A DNA stretch of 64,000 nt, taken from Siphonodentalium dalli (taxonomy: Eukaryota; Mollusca; Scaphopoda; Gadilida; Siphonodentaliidae). The stretch spans positions 95,656,707-95,720,706 of the forward strand of contig CP136067.1 in NCBI GenBank assembly GCA_032622095.1. The letters are read 5' to 3'. A model generated the notes under the pieces. That model searched no databases and was not told the origin of the DNA. It saw nothing but the letters and a program-made list of their open reading frames with translations. The position numbers and the translations under genes were made by a program. Below, piece by piece: positions 8,160 through 64,000 of the stretch. Position 1 is the stretch's first letter, and each line of letters opens with the position of its first letter.

Positions 8160-8857
8160 TGGACTTTTTTTTTCTTTTTTTTTGCTAAATCTGACGTTTA
8201 CATCCGCCACCGGCCAGCCTGATCTCACCACCCTCGGCCTGGTTTCACCGCCCCGACCAGGTATCACCAACCATCATGGTTTCGTCGCAACCCCTGTTAT
8301 GGTCTCACCCTCTCCCATGCTCCTTCATTAGCCAAGTTATTTAATTTCCAATGGTCTGTAACTTTGACATTTCTCAACCGATTTACAAAATGAATGAAAT
8401 CATCGCAAAGCAAAATTTTGCCCCCACCCAAAACCCAAAAAATATAAGTTCGTCCCTGTTCAAAACTTTTTTCTCGTATCAAGTTGCTAACGATTAACTG
8501 CATAGAAGCTCTCAAATCTGGATACCTTGTATGTCATAGGCAGACACAGGATATGAAATAAATCGAGTTTTGCCAGACATGGGCTCATACTTTTCGAGAT
8601 ACAGCAACCCAATTTTTTCACAAAAAGAGGGATAACTCTGTAGATCAAACGGGGACAATATCCTATATAGTCTATTCAGTTAGAATTAGTATAGGTCTAC
8701 ATGTATATACATACGAAATTCCAACTCCCTATCTCTTGTAATTCCAGAGATAAATTAGTTGAAAAATTGCTAAGAATAATAAATGATAATGGAAAAAAAT
8801 ATATAATTGAATAACAATATACTTCCATATTAAAATATGGAAGTATAATAACGAGGA
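8160..8857. other. Unannotated interval with short T- and C-rich runs
   Basis: No gene seen. A short palindrome ACTTCCATATTAAAATATGG lies near 8821, and a GGCCTGGTTTCACCGC-like CCACC-rich stretch near 8210-8290. Confidence 0.35.
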
Positions 8858-57642: not shown

Positions 57643-57702
57643 AGTAGTAATGGTGGGCACTATGTTCAAGCACGACAGCGAACAATTTATTCACATTCAA
57701 AG

Positions 57703-58167
57703 ATGACTGCTGTAAACATAACAGATCTTGACGAGATAATGGGCGGTGGGGTATACTGTAAAGCAGTGTACGGTGAAGAAATATCGCTATTTTGGAGGGC
57801 ACTCAGCCTCGGGATTTACGGGACGACCGATGGATGGATGATTCTGAGAGATGCGGCAGTTGACCTGTACTACACAGAGAGTGACGAACTTGGTGCGTCG
57901 GCACAAGATTTACGGCGCACACCACTTTTAGCCGAATCAAGATTGATGGTTGAATTAGCGGCGACTGTTATACAGCGACCTATCGTCATGTTTGATGCTA
58001 CCAAAGGCGGCTACAAATCAACACCAAGATTCAAGTCATCAATACCTCTAGTGTGGATCCCCCATGTTTGCCACGAGCATTATTGTGAATGCGAAATATG
58101 GATGAGGCGAGGAGACAAATCAATTGAAGTTTTGGCGAACAAAGAAGTTCAATGTGGCGGATTCTAA
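57703..58167 (+). CDS. OTU-like protein, copy 1 (154 residues)
   Basis: ATG 57703 follows the leader CATTCAAAG. Residues ~21-45 read GEEISLFWRALSLGIYGTTD, then WMILRDAAVDLYY, which matches the first OTU protease motif (dGxCxFRAls..iyG....W..lR) except that the nucleophile cysteine position holds L or S. Residues ~95-105 (IQRPIVMFDAT) fit the middle OTU strand. HEHYCECEIW (residues ~126-135) fits the His-Tyr of the third catalytic motif. If this is OTU, it lacks the cysteine and would be a non-catalytic ubiquitin-binding or decoy protein. The frame is intact and compact, ends TAA, and is followed 19 nt later by a histone-type stem-loop. A near-identical convergent copy lies at 58509-58973. The fold call is by eye; the gene call is strong because both copies are intact. 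Confidence 0.7.
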   Translation: MTAVNITDLDEIMGGGVYCKAVYGEEISLFWRALSLGIYGTTDGWMILRDAAVDLYYTESDELGASAQDLRRTPLLAESRLMVELAATVIQRPIVMFDATKGGYKSTPRFKSSIPLVWIPHVCHEHYCECEIWMRRGDKSIEVLANKEVQCGGF

Positions 58168-58186
58168 ACTATAACAAAAATAAAAC

Positions 58187-58202
58187 GGCCCTTTTCAGGG
58201 CC
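58187..58202 (+). terminator. Histone-type 3' stem-loop after OTU-like copy 1
   Basis: GGCCCTTTTCAGGGCC forms a 6-bp stem with a TTTC loop, preceded by AAAAC and followed by ACCAAA. It fits the histone mRNA consensus (GGYYYT-TTYH-ARRRCC, CAACC/ACCCA flanks). A purine-rich GAAAAGA, like the histone downstream element, starts 12 nt after the stem. Confidence 0.85.
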
Positions 58203-58230
58203 ACCAAATGATCGAAAAGATACTCTTGAT

Positions 58231-58320
58231 AGTGCCCATGTATGGGGGGTACTGGGCCATAGTGCCCATGTCTGGGGGGTACTGGGTCATAGTGCCCATG
58301 TCTGGGGGGTACTGGGCCAT
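58231..58320 (+). repeat. Three exact-length 30-bp repeats in the inverted-repeat spacer
   Basis: AGTGCCCATGTCTGGGGGGT + ACTGGGCCAT repeats at 58231, 58261 and 58291 with few changes. A plus-strand frame from ATG 58208 to 58507 would encode IVPMSGGYWA repeats, but it starts inside the downstream element and runs antisense into the opposite gene's 3' region, so it is not called a gene. Confidence 0.9.
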
Positions 58321-58473
58321 AGTTCCCACCCTGAGGATAGATGTTCCTGTCATTGATGTGACATTTCTGATCGAAAAAAATGAAAATGGACTTAGAATTA
58401 TTTTTTTTAAAAGGAAAATCTCACTTTGGAAAATATCAATTAGCTATCAAGAGTATCTTTTCGATCATTTGGT

Positions 58474-58489
58474 GGCCCTGAAAAGGGCC
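58474..58489 (-). terminator. Histone-type 3' stem-loop after OTU-like copy 2
   Basis: On the minus strand GGCCCTTTTCAGGGCC follows the stop by 19 nt, with AAAAC before and ACCAAA after, and GAAAAGA downstream. Confidence 0.85.
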
Positions 58490-58508
58490 GTTTTATTTTT
58501 GTTATAGT

Positions 58509-58973
58509 TTAGAATCCGCCACATTGAACTTCTTTGTTCGCCAAAACTTCAATTGATTTGTCTCCTCGCCTCATCCATATTTCGCATTCACAATAATGCT
58601 CGTGGCAAACGTGGGGGATCCACACTAGAGGTATTGATGACTTGAATCTTGGTGTTGATTTGTAGCCGCCTTTGGTAGCATCAAACATGACGATAGGTCG
58701 CTGTATAACAGTCGCCGCTAATTCAACCATCAATCTTGATTCGGCCAAAAGTGGTGTGCGCCGTAAATCTTGTGCCGACGCACCAAGTTCGTCACTCTCT
58801 GTGTAGTACAGGTCAACTGCCGCATCTCTCAGAATCATCCATCCATCGGTTGTCCCGTAAATCCCGAGGCTGAGTGCCCTCCAAAATAGCGACATTTCTT
58901 CACCGTACACTGCTTTACAGTATACCCCACCGCCCATTATCTCGTCAAGATCTGTTATGTTTACAGCAGTCAT
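58509..58973 (-). CDS. OTU-like protein, copy 2 (154 residues)
   Basis: Starts at ATG 58973 after the same CATTCAAAG leader. The only residue difference seen from copy 1 is I to M just before SLFWRAL. The OTU-like motifs and the missing cysteine are the same. An in-frame ATG lies further upstream (59105), but the shared leader and equal length with copy 1 favour 58973. It is transcribed toward copy 1; the two 3' ends face each other across the 30-bp repeats. Near-identity of the arms implies a very recent duplication or ongoing gene conversion. Upstream lies the divergent promoter block 59020-59541 shared with the 59873 gene. Confidence 0.7.
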   Translation of the reverse strand: MTAVNITDLDEIMGGGVYCKAVYGEEMSLFWRALSLGIYGTTDGWMILRDAAVDLYYTESDELGASAQDLRRTPLLAESRLMVELAATVIQRPIVMFDATKGGYKSTPRFKSSIPLVWIPHVCHEHYCECEIWMRRGDKSIEVLANKEVQCGGF

Positions 58974-59019
58974 CTTTGAATGTGAATAAATTGTTCGCTG
59001 TCGTGCTTGAACATATATC

Positions 59020-59541
59020 ACGATTACGCGGGCGGTAGAGAAAGCACATAATACTTTGACGTTAAAAATGACAAATGTTTCCTGACGTGTTTCTTTACAG
59101 TGCATTATCTGTTAGTTTCACCATTTCGATATGTTATAGATTAAATTCATGATAGTATATACAATTAATTAAGATGTTTTAACATATGAATTCATCTTCG
59201 TTCATAAACGATGACCAAGTAAAGTTATCAAATGCAATGATCAAGAAAAATGTTCAGTATGTTTCTTGTGTTCAGTTTTTATGTATAAAATATGTACAAT
59301 TCCAAAACCAAAAACTAGAAAAACATTCCATATTTGCCTAACGAGGTAATAAATATATCAATCATGTGTACCAAATAATAGATAATGATCTAACGAAATT
59401 AAAAACAATTGTTTGATCGCTATGCAATAATGATCAAGAAAAATATGCATGTTGATCCGGTTCTGAAAAAACACGTCAGGAAATATTTGTCAATTTTAAC
59501 GCCAAAGTATTATGTGATTTCATTGACGCCCGTGTAACAAT
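59020..59541. promoter_or_regulatory. Divergent promoter block, copy A
   Basis: Between the minus-strand OTU-like gene and the plus-strand 59873 gene. Its two ends are inverted: CACATAATACTTTGACGTTA (from 59044) and, near 59473-59515, ACGTCAGGAAATATTTGTC with TAACGCCAAAGTATTATGTG. Each end thus presents the same TGACGT/CRE-like element and leader outward. The whole block recurs as copy C at 60890-61432, and its right part as copy B at 59542-59834. Confidence 0.75.
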
Positions 59542-59834
59542 CTTGTGTTCAGTTTTATGTATAAAATATGTACAATTCCAAAAACAAAAACTAGAAAAAC
59601 ATTCCATATTTTCCTAACGAGATAACAAATATATCAATCATGTGTACCAACTAATAGATAATGATCTAACGAAATAAAAAACATTTGTTTGATCGCTATA
59701 CAATAATGATCAAGAAAAATATGCATGTTGATCCGGCTCTGAAAAAACACAACTTGAGGAAATATTTGTCAATTTTAACGCCAACGCGACATGTGATTTC
59801 ATTGTCGCCCGTGTCAAATGTATACAAATATTTT
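59542..59834. repeat. Tandem partial copy (B) of the promoter block
   Basis: From CTTGTGTTCAGTTTTATG to GTCAAATGTATACAAATATT it repeats the right ~280 bp of block A with small changes, so the 59873 gene has two tandem promoter halves upstream. Confidence 0.88.
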
Positions 59835-59872
59835 CGAATTTGATCAACCTTAGATTGCATTGCTATCAAGAG

Positions 59873-60355
59873 ATGGATCCGTTAACAGAATTTCTTCAGA
59901 GTGAGATATACAGTAGTCCTGTTGCACAGAATACATATGCGGCACCACAGTCAACAGGCCAAGCTAATACGACAATGACTATAGGTGGTGATACACTCAT
60001 TTTAAAAGCGATTTTAGATGAACTGAGATGTCTTCGCAGGGATATTGACGTGAAAACGCAAGTAACGCATCAAGAAGTGAAAGTGAATCTTCATTTCGTT
60101 GCAGAAGAGATAGATATACCAATCAGGGTTCATGATGTTCAGAGATCGAAAGAGCAGAAACAGATCAAAAAAGAAAAATTATTGGCGGCGAAAGAAAAAC
60201 AACCTAAGAGTATCATGAAGACTGAGACAAAAGTCAGATTTCATCTTCCTTGTAAAGAATCTAAAGATACAGAGAAAAGTGATGAATTCGCAAAAGCTCT
60301 CGGTTCTCATGGGAAAGATATGTCAAGATATAAGAAAAACACAAAACGGTGTTAA
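59873..60355 (+). CDS. Unknown 160-residue protein with basic C-terminal half
   Basis: Starts MDPLTEFLQSEIYSSP at ATG 59873. Residues 1-40 are polar with Q, T and S. Residues ~42-65 (LILKAILDELRCLRRDI) look helical, possibly coiled-coil. Residues ~95-125 are strongly basic and charged (EQKQIKKEKLLAAKEKQ, KSIMKTETKV). The end reads RYKKNTKRC. No family is recognised; a helical oligomerisation segment plus basic tail would suit a DNA- or virion-core-associated protein, but that is a guess. Its stop is followed after 22 nt by a histone-type stem-loop. It shares the divergent block A/B with the OTU-like copy 2. Confidence 0.68.
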   Translation: MDPLTEFLQSEIYSSPVAQNTYAAPQSTGQANTTMTIGGDTLILKAILDELRCLRRDIDVKTQVTHQEVKVNLHFVAEEIDIPIRVHDVQRSKEQKQIKKEKLLAAKEKQPKSIMKTETKVRFHLPCKESKDTEKSDEFAKALGSHGKDMSRYKKNTKRC

Positions 60356-60377
60356 AGTCAGATGATAATTTTAAAAC

Positions 60378-60393
60378 GGCCCTTTTCAGGGCC
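60378..60393 (+). terminator. Histone-type 3' stem-loop after the 160-residue gene
   Basis: GGCCCTTTTCAGGGCC with AAAAC before and ACACACA after; AAAAGG starts 13 nt downstream as a candidate downstream element. The following ~85 bp recur after the stem-loop at 61844. Confidence 0.85.
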
Positions 60394-60603
60394 ACACACA
60401 TTTCCCAAAAGGTTACTCTTTCATAGCTGAAAAATCAAAACACGATTGTTCAATTCATATTTTATTCAACAACAAATATTTGCAAGTATATTTTGTTTTA
60501 AATTATTCGTGGCGTGATTTTTTCAAAACGAAACATAGGGTACAAGGAACATTATTAGTTCTTAAGCAAATGCTAAAAGTTTTTCTTTTTGAAAAAATTG
60601 GTT

Positions 60604-60619
60604 GGTCCTGAAAAGGACC
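60604..60619 (-). terminator. Second histone-type stem-loop, compensated variant
   Basis: On the minus strand the stem is GGTCCTTTTCAGGACC: C-G in the other copies is replaced by T-A on both sides, so pairing is kept. AAAAAC precedes, AACCAA follows, and CAAAAAGAAAAAC lies about 12 nt downstream, the best histone-downstream-element match in the window. Confidence 0.82.
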
Positions 60620-60632
60620 GTTTTTTGTTTTT

Positions 60633-60648
60633 GGCCCTGAAAAGGGCC
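60633..60648 (-). terminator. First histone-type stem-loop after the 58-residue gene
   Basis: GGCCCTTTTCAGGGCC on the minus strand, 20 nt after the stop at 60669, preceded by AAAAC and followed by AAAAACAAAAAAC rather than an ACC flank. The variant stem-loop at 60604 follows it in tandem. Confidence 0.8.
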
Positions 60649-60668
60649 GTTTTGTACGCCATCAAAAT

Positions 60669-60845
60669 TCACTCACCAATTTTCTCAGAGTGTGAATTTT
60701 GCTTTTGTTCCCCCGCTGTTCTTTTTTGCAGGACCAGCTTTGAACGGGCGGTCACTTCTCTTGCGTGTCTGTCCCACATTATCTGCGGCGTTATCCCCAT
60801 CGTTCCTCTCAGTATCGCCATCAAGGGTTCGGGTATTGCAGTCAT
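60669..60845 (-). CDS. Unknown 58-residue basic protein
   Basis: ATG 60845 follows the leader CATTCAAAG and begins MTAIPEPLMAILRGTMG, ending KRTAGEQKQNSHSEKIGE. The leader and first codons (CATTCAAAGATGACTGC) match those of the OTU-like genes, so the promoter and start were duplicated while the body differs. The product is small and basic (DRHAREVTARSKLVLQKR). Two tandem stem-loops follow. It may be a short gene, or a remnant placed behind a copied promoter. It is divergent from the 61459 gene across promoter block C and convergent with the 59873 gene. Confidence 0.55.
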   Translation of the reverse strand: MTAIPEPLMAILRGTMGITPQIMWDRHAREVTARSKLVLQKRTAGEQKQNSHSEKIGE

Positions 60846-60889
60846 CTTTGAATGTAGAATAAGTCTGAAGATCCGTCTTGAACTTGTAT

Positions 60890-61432
60890 TACGATTGCGC
60901 GGACGGTAGAGAAAGCACATAATACTTTGACGTTAAAAATGACAAATGTTCCCTGACGTTGTGTTTCTTTTCAGTGCATTATCTGTTAGTTTCACCATTT
61001 CGATATGTTATAGATTAAATTTATGATAGTATATACAATTAATTAAGATATTTTAACATATGAATTCATCTTCGTTCATAAACGATGACCAAGTAAAGTT
61101 ATCAAATGCAATGATCAAGAAAAATGTTCAGTATGTTTCTTGTGTTCAGTTTTTATGTATAAAATATGTACAATTCCAAAACCAAAAACTAGAAAAACAT
61201 TCCATATTTGCCTAACGAGGTAATAAATATATCAATCATGTGTACCAAATAATAGATAATGATCTAACGAAATTAAAAACATTTGTTTGATCGCTATGCA
61301 ATAATGATTAAGAAAAATATGCATGGTGATCCGGTTCTGAAAAAACACAACGTCAGGAAATATTTGTCAATTTTAACGCCAACGCGACATGTGATTTCAT
61401 TGTCGCCCGTGTCAAATGTATACAAATATTTT
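60890..61432. promoter_or_regulatory. Divergent promoter block, copy C
   Basis: Matches block A from ACGATTGCGCGGACGGTAGA through CACATAATACTTTGACGTTA to AACGTCAGGAAATATTTGTC and then the end of block B (GTCAAATGTATACAAATATT). It separates the minus-strand 58-residue gene from the plus-strand 61459 frame. Confidence 0.78.
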
Positions 61433-61458
61433 CACTTTTTCAGTGAACTTCATTCATT

Positions 61459-61824
61459 ATGCCGTCTTTAAAGAAATTTATCAAGAAGTTGTGAAGGAAG
61501 AGAGATTCGTCAGAGGAGACGGAGATAAAAAGATATAGGAAATGGCAGGATTCTCCTGAACAAAAGGTGGTACAGAAGCAGATGCTAAGAGATTTTCTGG
61601 CTCGGCGACGACCATCGCCTGAAGTATGTGATCAAGAATCAAGCAATCAAGAATCAAGCAATCTTGATCTCGTGGAGATCTTGTCACAGATCAAGAAGAA
61701 AGATCTGTGCAATGCAGCAATTGACAGCTTCGCTCAGGCTGCTGCGGCGCACAGATCAAATCCTACTTGGTCTGTGACAATTAATCCCAACGGGATATAT
61801 CCTGATTTGGCAGAATTTTTATGA
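61459..61824 (+). pseudogene. Unknown ~121-codon gene with one in-frame TGA
   Basis: ATG 61459 opens MPSLKKFIKKL, then TGA at 61492-61494, then the frame continues RKRDSSEETEIKRYRKWQDS through LARRRPSPEVCDQESSNQ and NPNGIYPDLAEFL to TGA at 61822. The start sits at the same place relative to promoter block C as other genes, and a histone-type stem-loop follows the final stop after 19 nt, so the whole frame was probably one gene. The TGA may be an inactivating change, readthrough, or mean that translation starts at ATG 61582 (80 residues). A 12-bp GAATCAAGCAAT unit is duplicated near 61638-61661. No family recognised; the N-terminus is basic. Confidence 0.55.
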
Positions 61825-61843
61825 ATTCTGGAAAAGAAAAAAC

Positions 61844-61859
61844 GGCCCTTTTCAGGGCC
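61844..61859 (+). terminator. Histone-type 3' stem-loop after the 61459 gene
   Basis: GGCCCTTTTCAGGGCC preceded by AAAAAC and followed by ACCCACA, the closest match in the window to the canonical histone flanks. AAAAGG starts 13 nt downstream. Confidence 0.88.
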
Positions 61860-62043
61860 ACCCACATTTCCCAAAAGGTTACTCTTTCATAGCTGAAAAA
61901 AACAAAACACGATTGTTCAATTCATAATTTATTCACACAACATAATTTTCAAATGTTTGTATCGATTTGTTTATCTGTTTTGGAATGTAGAATGGTCTCA
62001 GCTTCTTTTTCTTGGAAGTTTTCTTGGAATTTTCAAAATCTGG

Positions 62044-62113
62044 AGAATTACATCTGCTTTTATAGCATTTTCATCGCGAATGCTATAAAAGCTATAAAAG
62101 CAGGTGTAATTCT
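62044..62113. promoter_or_regulatory. Palindromic TATA promoter of the polymerase gene
   Basis: AGAATTACATCTGCTTTTAT on the left mirrors ATAAAAGCAGGTGTAATTCT on the right. TATAAAAG occurs once on the minus strand and twice in tandem on the plus strand (62084 and 62093). The plus-strand boxes lie about 90 nt upstream of the polymerase ATG. Confidence 0.72.
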
Positions 62114-62180
62114 ACACTTTACACTTCAACTCCGAAGAAGCCAGTCGCAATATTTTTTGCTGACAAAACTCAAGACAAAA

Positions 62181-64000
62181 ATGTTTAAGAGAATTAAAAG
62201 ACCTGTTTCAGACGACGCCACCAGCGAAGAAGATATTGTTAGAAAAAGACCAAGGCCTGCAGTTATTGAAGAGAGCGATATGGAAACTGATGAGGCAGAA
62301 AGTGAAGAGAGCGATATGGAAACTGATGAGGCAGAAAGTGAAGAGAGCGATATGGAAACTGATAGGGCAGAAAGTGAAGAAAGTTCTAGTGATGGGCAGA
62401 TTGGACGCGGTCGAAGACAGAATAGAGAAATTGGTGGGAAGAGAAAGAGAAGTCTGGCTAGAGAGCGTGTTGTGTTCAATCCAACAAAATATTTCAAATT
62501 GGAGCTGAACTCGGAGAAATTTTCCAGAAAATTTAAATCAGCATCACGACAATTTGGTGTGAAATTCGAGAAATTTACAGATCCAATCGAAAATATTCCA
62601 GAGATATTTGAGAAGTTGACAGAAGAATTGAAACAGAAATGTTCAGCAAATGAGAAGACAAGAATCAGAGTTACGATAAATCATCCAGGACTTGATATGA
62701 GCATTTTCATTCCATTCACAAAAGCCAGTGAATTGAATGGTGGGACACTCATGGATAATATTCAAAATGTGGTTCAATCAAATGCAGACTTTACAATTCA
62801 TGACGGTGCACTCAATTTCGAAATCTTCGTTACAGATATTCCGGAAGGTGGTACACGACACTCACTACATTATGGACCATTTGCAGACAAGAACAAGCTG
62901 ACAAAAGTAAAAAGAAGTATTGTCCGGATTGAAAATGCTGATGATGTTATGTGTATGGCAAGATCTATTGTCGTCGGAATGTGTAAGGCAGATAGTGATG
63001 GATCTGCGTGCTGGTCAAAGAAATGGAAAAGAATAAGACAATCAATATACACAGCACAAACAGATGCAGCAAAAAATCTACTCAACCGTGCTGGCATTCC
63101 ACACGATACAGTTTGCAGTATCAATGAGTTCCACAAGATTCAAGAAATATTGTATCCAGAATATGTTGTGAAAATTCACAATGAATTTGCTGGCGCTGGA
63201 TTTCTATTTGAACCTGCAGAAATGTGTTCGGAGAGCAAATGTGTACACATCTACTACAACAACAATCACTTCGACACCATAACATCAATCAAAGGATTTC
63301 TAGGCACCAGCTACTACTGCGAATTCTGTGACATTGGATTCCATATGCGTGGCGATCATCGATGCAGATTTGTTTGTGCATGCTGGTCATTGACACAGTG
63401 TAATTTCACAAATTGGGTGAAGTGTAGAACGTGTCGACGATCATTCAGAAGTAAATCTTGTTTCGACAACCATTTGAAGACGGAAGGAAAACAGAAAGGA
63501 AAAATATGTGATTTGGTTCAACTATGCAACAAATGTGATGAAGAAATTCTCATCAATAAATCAAGCAGACATATATGTGCGGGGTTGAAGAAATGCAAAC
63601 ATTGCAAAGAAATCGTTGAAGCAGATCACAGGTGCTACATTCCAAAATATGAATCACCGGAAAAGAAACCTGCAAAGATTCCATATGTATTCTTTGACTT
63701 TGAATGCAGACAAGACACAGGTGTTCATATTCCAAACTTCTGTGTTGCACATACCGCTTGTGGAGATTGCATGTGCAAACCAATCGAAGAAAAATGTGAA
63801 ACATGCAGACCGGATTCCAGAGAATTTGTATTCAATGGCGACAACGTTTTAACAGACTTCACAAACTGGTTATTCCACCAAGATCACAAAGGATGTGTTG
63901 CAATAGCACATAATGCTCAGGGATACGATGCACAGTTTCTACTTCAAGCACTCATACAAAGTGGAATTCATAAACCAGAACTGATCATGAATGGAAACAA
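62181..64000 (+). CDS. Protein-primed family B DNA polymerase, N-terminal 606 codons (Polinton/adintovirus type)
   Basis: An uninterrupted frame runs from ATG 62181 to the window end. Residues 1-30 carry basic clusters (MFKRIKRP, RKRPRP) likely for nuclear import. Residues ~31-68 have three acidic EESDMETDEAES repeats. DDVMCMARSIVVGM (~255-268) is the family's conserved pre-exonuclease segment. Residues ~385-480 hold several zinc-binding pairs (CEFC, CRTC, CNKC, CKHC). VFFDFEC (~500) is exonuclease motif I, and AHNAQGYDAQF (~575-585) is motif II. Motif III and the polymerase domain lie beyond 64000. Such enzymes replicate linear genomes with terminal proteins. The intact long frame implies a young or still functional element. 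The homologous left-edge polymerase diverges strongly, so the two elements are different lineages. Confidence 0.9.
   Translation, partial: MFKRIKRPVSDDATSEEDIVRKRPRPAVIEESDMETDEAESEESDMETDEAESEESDMETDRAESEESSSDGQIGRGRRQNREIGGKRKRSLARERVVFNPTKYFKLELNSEKFSRKFKSASRQFGVKFEKFTDPIENIPEIFEKLTEELKQKCSANEKTRIRVTINHPGLDMSIFIPFTKASELNGGTLMDNIQNVVQSNADFTIHDGALNFEIFVTDIPEGGTRHSLHYGPFADKNKLTKVKRSIVRIENADDVMCMARSIVVGMCKADSDGSACWSKKWKRIRQSIYTAQTDAAKNLLNRAGIPHDTVCSINEFHKIQEILYPEYVVKIHNEFAGAGFLFEPAEMCSESKCVHIYYNNNHFDTITSIKGFLGTSYYCEFCDIGFHMRGDHRCRFVCACWSLTQCNFTNWVKCRTCRRSFRSKSCFDNHLKTEGKQKGKICDLVQLCNKCDEEILINKSSRHICAGLKKCKHCKEIVEADHRCYIPKYESPEKKPAKIPYVFFDFECRQDTGVHIPNFCVAHTACGDCMCKPIEEKCETCRPDSREFVFNGDNVLTDFTNWLFHQDHKGCVAIAHNAQGYDAQFLLQALIQSGIHKPELIMNGN

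Follow-up and report, generated by a model that had tools for sequence, protein, structure and literature searches.

Histone-type 3′ stem-loops follow the accessory genes of a Polinton in the scaphopod Siphonodentalium dalli

A Polinton in the genome of Siphonodentalium dalli carries, behind each of its small accessory genes X, Y, Z and W, stem-loops of the kind that forms the 3′ end of replication-dependent histone mRNAs. The block lies near the right-hand end of the 64,000-nucleotide stretch of DNA analysed here (the window), and the positions of its features are given in the table. Histone mRNAs are textbook examples of metazoan mRNAs that lack a poly(A) tail and, to our knowledge, accounts of the SLBP/U7 route to such ends are usually confined to histone genes. 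We consider it probable (roughly 0.7) that the Polinton borrows the host histone pre-mRNA 3′-end machinery for X, Y, Z and W, with its replication and virion genes having ordinary ends.

Table. Features of the Polinton and its accessory block in the window.
Feature	Position	Strand	Details
Polinton/Maverick (adintovirus type), left part	57643..64000	+	Continues to L032:700 (G000:C7:95731406); total about 17,058 bp
X′, fold-back inverted duplicate of gene X	57703..58167	+	154 aa; 572-nt arms 57661-58232 / 58444-59015, 99% complementary
Stem-loop of X′	58187-58202	+	RF00032 match 58182-58227, 37.8 bits; stop-to-stem gap 19 nt
Stem-loop of gene X	58474-58489	-	RF00032 match 58449-58494, 37.8 bits; stop-to-stem gap 19 nt
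Gene X	58509..58973	-	154 aa; no family match
Putative divergent promoter region, X-Y (from position)	59006..59835		Recurs at 60877-61433 between Z and W
Gene Y	59873..60355	+	160 aa; no convincing family match
Stem-loop of gene Y	60378-60393	+	RF00032 match 60373-60417, 40.1 bits; stop-to-stem gap 22 nt
Second stem-loop of gene Z	60604-60619	-	RF00032 match 60578-60624, 37.1 bits; stop-to-stem gap 49 nt
First stem-loop of gene Z	60633-60648	-	Stem intact, below Rfam gathering score; stop-to-stem gap 20 nt
Gene Z	60669..60845	-	58 aa (83 aa from upstream ATG)
Gene W	61459..61824	+	Frame interrupted by one premature stop in this copy; 80 aa remain open (61582-61824)
Stem-loop of gene W	61844-61859	+	RF00032 match 61839-61883, 40.8 bits; stop-to-stem gap 19 nt
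PolB gene, 5′ part	62181..64000	+	Frame broken in this copy; runs on into L031 as a number of open pieces

The element, predicted from the window to be Polinton-like, is a Polinton/Maverick of the adintovirus type. As in other Polintons and the Adintoviridae, it has an inverted terminal repeat (58233-58404 against L032:628-457), a 6-bp target duplication (TGTGCC) that bounds the termini AGTAGTAATGG and CCATTACTACT, and genes for PolB (Pfam DNA_pol_B_2, 3.4e-27), an A32-type ATPase (Pox_A32, 8.3e-9), a chromodomain integrase (Chromo, 8.9e-6) and an adenain-like protease (Peptidase_C5, 3.6e-4, its 20.7 bits being just under the cut-off of 21.3). Relatives of its PolB include that of the Rhodactis coral adintovirus. 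The capsid protein, which has no Pfam match, was assigned from homologues, bivalve ones among them, and gene order alone; the domain search gave no match for the integrase core in the element, and the integrase gene seems broken in this copy. Unlike Polintons and Adintoviridae as described, this element carries in addition a block of four accessory genes whose 3′ ends are of histone type.

A pattern rule applied to the window confirms the six predicted stem-loops, all of which stand behind a gene and in its sense. When all six pairs of the 16-nt hairpin are required to form, a loose version of this rule matches these six sites only in the whole 64 kb, compared with a mean of 0.55 matches in 40 first-order Markov windows. 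Their histone type is borne out by the Rfam covariance model RF00032, for which five of the six reach the gathering score (37.1-40.8 bits, E 1.4e-8 to 3.4e-7). As at the 3′ end of a replication-dependent histone mRNA, the 16-nt stem-loop comes close after the stop codon, is preceded by AAAC and followed by ACC or ACA, and has a purine-rich element (AAAAGA or AAAAGG) 12-13 nt beyond the stem; the purine element is present for X, Y and W and behind the second stem-loop of Z. The first Z stem-loop (60648 -) has no such element, lacks the usual histone-like downstream flank and is not among the matches at gathering score. In the second, one stem pair is altered on both sides (GGTCC..GGACC). The hairpins are stable and GC-rich amid AT-rich surroundings. 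The divergent and convergent pairing of the genes also resembles histone genes, whereas the location of the signal, behind Polinton accessory genes and in one case as a tandem pair, does not.

Two parts of the original prediction have to be narrowed. All six stem-loops are present, but those of X and X′ both lie in the 572-nt inverted arms, which are 99% alike, and so represent one duplicated signal; the X′ duplicate, with the stem-loop at 58187, is missing from all six other copies compared. The usual set is thus one stem-loop each for X, Y and W and two in tandem for Z. The proposal that every complete gene of the element ends in this way holds for the accessory block in the window, but not for the remaining 10.7 kb, which holds the ATPase and virion genes and is free of RF00032 matches; there is none after PolB or any later gene of the element, and none in the next 20 kb past the window, within which those 10.7 kb lie.

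Comparison with the host's own histone genes, which the original prediction had proposed, shows the same signal. Each of the 25 host histone-array loci inspected (L006-L030) contains the 16-mer GGCCCTTTTCAGGGCC, identical to that of the element; in the three loci whose frames were inspected it lies behind H4 and H2B in every case and behind H2A in two, the genes being named by eye. The spacing from stem to purine element is equal to that in the Polinton, whereas the gap from stop codon to stem is longer in the host genes (29-36 nt compared with 19-22 nt). The host has SLBP, whose RNA-binding domain was matched as two separate pieces (60.6 and 31.4 bits). For host U7 snRNA, a profile search reached 26.8 bits at best, against a cut-off of 34, and a search by pattern returned 122 hits, of which nearly all that were listed belong to one repeat and the five inspected show no U7-like hairpin. 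The motif GATCC, which we take to be a histone-promoter motif, occurs upstream of Y, W and three host histone genes, but farther from a TATA-like stretch.

The signals are found again in other copies of the element and in its subfamilies. In 29 copies compared with the window (21 for the W signal), changes are found at 6 of 1,728 stem-loop sites and 9 of 2,162 sites in the downstream elements, compared with 384 of 21,928 in non-coding flanks and 555 of 23,352 in coding sequence, although such counts are not independent because the copies are related by descent. Five more diverged copies give 3/320 and 2/410 for the stem-loops and downstream elements, and 146/2,727 and 170/2,070 for the flanks and coding sequence. 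The query used to collect the 29 copies spans the stem-loops of Y and Z, and L001-L005 were picked up through their W stem-loop; inside that query the difference is small, with 6 of 1,392 sites changed in the Y and Z stem-loops and 35 of 4,350 in the intervening non-coding sequence. The two-sided change in the second Z stem-loop is exact in 32 of 34 copies, and the X stem-loop reaches gathering score in five of six other copies, being deleted in the sixth. Signals are present also in copies picked regardless of the stem-loop. Among ten chosen by their ATPase only (1.66 kb each), eight have an RF00032 match; of the other two, L107 is non-homologous in that stretch and L111 has lost the accessory block. 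Seven copies chosen blind to the stem-loop show no change at 112 sites of the W stem-loop; the rate in their W downstream element (7/189, one change being common to all seven) is no lower than in the flanks (103/3,353).

The accessory genes themselves are judged intronless from open frames only. Gene X includes an OTU-protease-like stretch, presumably so from its likeness by eye; a fold predicted for X without an alignment was uninformative (pLDDT 33.9). A search for homologues of protein Y found none at E 0.001. Ratios of nonsynonymous to synonymous change are 0.42 for X (5 copies) and, in counts where L038, L041 and L042 overlap one another in a tandem array, 0.22 for Z and 0.25 for W (29 loci each) and 0.81 for Y (31 stretches in 29 loci, 18 of the 31 with a clean frame). 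The X, Z and W proteins thus look constrained, and that of Y shows little apparent constraint. The intergenic repeat shared by X-Y and Z-W consists of the direct repeats D1, D2 and D4.

Poly(A) signals are distributed unevenly. No AATAAA or ATTAAA occurs in the sense of Y or W within more than 350 nt past the stop codon, and an AATAAA follows the last late gene of the element (L032:342). In gene X, AATAAA lies 2 nt ahead of the stem, and in gene Z about 140 nt past the stem-loops; poly(A) ends are therefore possible for these two.

The presence of the signals could reflect history and not use, if the element took a histone 3′ end together with a host segment and duplicated it along with its genes, so that the signal now does little. 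The identity of the 16-mer with that of the host genes would be expected from this, the accessory block did grow through duplication, the copies among the matches listed are young, and common descent confounds the conservation counts. Beyond about 26 nt, however, the flanks are unlike host histone 3′ ends and unlike one another between the accessory genes, the stems have been kept, one with a two-sided change, and the distant Polinton described below has the signal behind an unrelated gene; we regard such a capture as unlikely. That the hairpins act simply as DNA, or as plain RNA stability or termination elements, with a superficial likeness to histone ends, seems to us highly improbable. Their stability, their GC-richness in AT-rich surroundings and the AATAAA beside the X stem could be read in this way, but a plain hairpin would have no need of such sequence-specific features as the TTTTC loop, the ACC flank and the purine element 12-13 nt further on, which are matched by the covariance model and found in the host histone genes.

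A further explanation concerns the abundance of the element, of which at least 150 near-identical ATPase copies stand among the matches listed (3,113 candidates). Its transcripts might serve as a decoy that binds SLBP and starves host histone mRNA processing, leaving the element DNA nucleosome-free or lengthening S phase, with processing of the element's own mRNAs being secondary. The copy number, the tandem stem-loops behind Z and the finding that the best five of the 75 RF00032 matches reported genome-wide come from copies of this element and not from histone genes are all consistent with this. Processing, and not SLBP binding, requires the downstream purine element and a near-fixed distance to the stop codon, however, and each signal stands behind a gene, in sense, so that we give the decoy little credence. 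Genuine use of the SLBP route is favoured.

If the Polinton does use this route, host SLBP would bind its stem-loop, U7 snRNP would pair with the purine element, and the RNA would be cut a few nucleotides past the stem and receive no poly(A) tail. From such processing it would follow that production of the X, Y, Z and W proteins falls mainly in S phase, the time at which the element can be replicated; this step and the pairing with U7 are the weakest in the scheme. The placement of histone-type ends on accessory and not capsid genes suggests that the accessory genes are tied to the DNA-synthesis phase of the host, their designation as 'early' being by analogy.

The signal was found in one of 16 other adintovirus-PolB loci. 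L070, another and distant Polinton (35% identity in the best PolB segment), has a perfect stem-loop (RF00032, 35.8 bits) 28 nt past a C2H2 zinc-finger gene, with the purine element AAAAAAGAGATTTT 12 nt beyond it. Applied to other loci, the loose rule found nothing in L084 and picked out only L070 and a single, unconvincing site in L069; six other MAG contigs and L069 have no RF00032 match at a permissive Rfam threshold, and in a second Polinton family of this host the single copy inspected lacks the signal. Neither PolB nor the capsid protein, whether queried as single sequences or as alignments, returned relatives from IMG/VR, and the phage collection held no PolB relative; viral_contigs contains no match to a strict stem-loop pattern and 11 to a looser one, none of which passes RF00032. 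The odds seem to us evenly balanced that at least two separate Polinton/adintovirus lineages independently brought 3′ processing of the SLBP/U7 type to their small accessory genes, giving tail-less, S-phase-coupled mRNAs apart from polyadenylated structural genes.

A literature search found no description of a Polinton accessory block with histone-type 3′ ends, in keeping with the expectation that no standard description exists, except that a survey of Polinton-like viruses and virophages, elements related to this one, lists RF00032 with n=6 (PMC12220804; 8,300 genomes scanned according to its methods). The Rfam family is thus common to both; the available parts of that paper give the number as a list count, without discussion and without places, genes or interpretation for the matches.

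Because the element is young and has so many near-identical copies among the matches listed, the idea is testable at once. If it is true, poly(A)-selected transcriptomes would be blind to X, Y, Z and W, and the element would offer an outside test of the requirements of SLBP/U7 processing. It would also show how selfish DNA, here a virus-like element, can couple the expression of its genes to host DNA replication.

Six short stem-loops had been predicted behind genes in this region, and each is present in the window at its predicted position. When the entire window was compared with 4,227 Rfam families at the gathering score, the covariance model of the histone 3' stem-loop, RF00032, matched five of the six, with E-values of 1.4e-8 to 3.4e-7. 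The sixth, at 60648-60633 on the minus strand, has the stem, with the next stem-loop close behind it, and gives no RF00032 match at the gathering score. A loose pattern, GG....T.T....CC with a requirement for six base pairs, matches the same six sites and nothing else in the 64-kb window; applied to Markov-1 windows it gives a mean of 0.55 matches. We regard it as close to certain that, at the level of sequence, the stem-loops on the small accessory genes of this element (X, Y, Z and W) are histone-type 3' ends.

Matches to the histone 3' stem-loop model RF00032 in the window
Feature	Position	Strand	Score (bits)
RF00032 match	61839-61883	+	40.8
RF00032 match	60373-60417	+	40.1
RF00032 match	58182-58227	+	37.8
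RF00032 match	58494-58449	-	37.8
RF00032 match	60624-60578	-	37.1

The element that carries these genes is, judged by its sequence, a Polinton/Maverick of the adintovirus type, and in this respect the original prediction of a Polinton-like element was sound. It starts at 57643 and ends at position 700 of L032, the second of two loci (L031 and L032) through which it continues beyond the window, with AGTAGTAATGG termini and a 6-bp target duplication, TGTGCC. Its genes include Pfam matches to DNA_pol_B_2, the Pox_A32 ATPase and Chromo, with adenain falling just below the cut-off. The PolB of a Rhodactis coral adintovirus (P0138) is among the relatives of its PolB, at 42% identity. The capsid gene was assigned from homologues and gene order, and the nearest named relatives of its product are from the clam Mercenaria, on which ground the host is probably a mollusc or something akin to one.

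A search of the host genome (2.23 Gb in 9 contigs) with the element ATPase as query placed copies with 99-100% identity at no fewer than 150 sites, 150 of the 3,113 first-look candidates having been scored; the element appears to have undergone a very large and recent expansion across this genome. The left end of the copy in the window (57643-59015) is a fold-back, in the order terminus, inverted copy of X, terminal repeat and gene X, and resembles the product of hairpin-type replication or repair. Among other copies picked by their ATPase, L102-L106, L108 and L110 apparently lack the Y/Z part, with W directly adjoining a putative promoter region (in L105, with X); most of them contain a stretch homologous to ~62142-62281, in the orientation opposite to W. 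Gene X itself (58509-58973, minus strand) includes an OTU-protease-like stretch, LFWRALSLGIYG, in which Ser or a neighbouring residue stands at the would-be catalytic Cys; a family search with gene X gave no match and its predicted fold was uninformative.

The putative divergent promoter regions of the accessory block share a repeated GATCCG, at 59454, 59730 and 61328. This hexamer resembles the GATCC motif that is a feature of invertebrate histone promoters, and it is also found upstream of three host histone genes. It occurs 10 times in the 64-kb window, with five of the 10 within 59454-61328 and one of those five inside gene Y.

The stem-loops had been expected to end every complete gene of the element, and this does not hold over its full length. 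An RF00032 scan of L031 and L032, which carry the remainder of PolB and the ATPase, integrase, capsid and protease genes, gave no matches, and an AATAAA lies 3' of the last late gene, at L032:342. On these two grounds the element seems to have 3' ends of two kinds, accessory and late. AATAAA is also present 2 nt ahead of the stem of X and ~140 nt past the Z stem-loops, the latter on the minus strand.

Public MAG contigs yielded 17 adintovirus-type PolB loci, and one of the 16 scanned with Rfam, L070 (CALIZB010000033.1), contains an RF00032 match. By its sequence L070 is a Polinton different from the element in the window. Pfam identifies PolB, an integrase (rve, with Chromo below the cut-off) and a TBP-like gene, and the capsid and protease genes were called from position only. 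The L070 stem-loop, GGCCCTTATCAGGGCC, lies 28 nt 3' of a C2H2 zinc-finger gene and is followed 12 nt further on by AAAAAAGAGATTTT. For the remaining MAG loci the absence of the signal is weak evidence, most of them being partial; six of these, and L069 as well, gave no RF00032 match even at E-values up to 5. IMG/VR provided no element with a histone-type stem-loop. A second Polinton family in the host was located with the L070 capsid protein as query; the one copy examined, covered by pieces spanning terminal repeat to terminal repeat, the capsid gene excepted, lacks any RF00032 match. As a sequence feature, the histone-type signal is thus found in at least two distant Polinton lineages and is absent from another.

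Both L070 and the second host family encode TBP (PF00352; 1.2e-27 at L070:7189-7695, minus strand, and 2.9e-32, respectively). In the latter, TBP is accompanied by a PC4 coactivator (PF02229, 4.5e-15); the two genes lie at L115:811-1335 and 1347-1958, both on the minus strand. Polintons with TBP or PC4 genes would bring their own transcription-initiation factors.

PMC12220804 reports six RF00032 hits, as a bare count, for a collection of Polinton-like viruses and virophages, and its methods put the number of genomes scanned at 8,300. We found no literature linking SLBP with Polintons, and the available part of the text of PMC11071296 mentions histone-like proteins and does not contain the term 'stem-loop'. 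The accessory-gene ends are probably processed by SLBP and U7, a reading to which we assign a probability of roughly 70%. The restriction of the stem-loops to the accessory genes, in our view, raises the interest of the finding. Since coupling to S phase is the known behaviour of histone mRNAs, expression of the Polinton accessory genes would, by analogy, be coupled to S phase as well.
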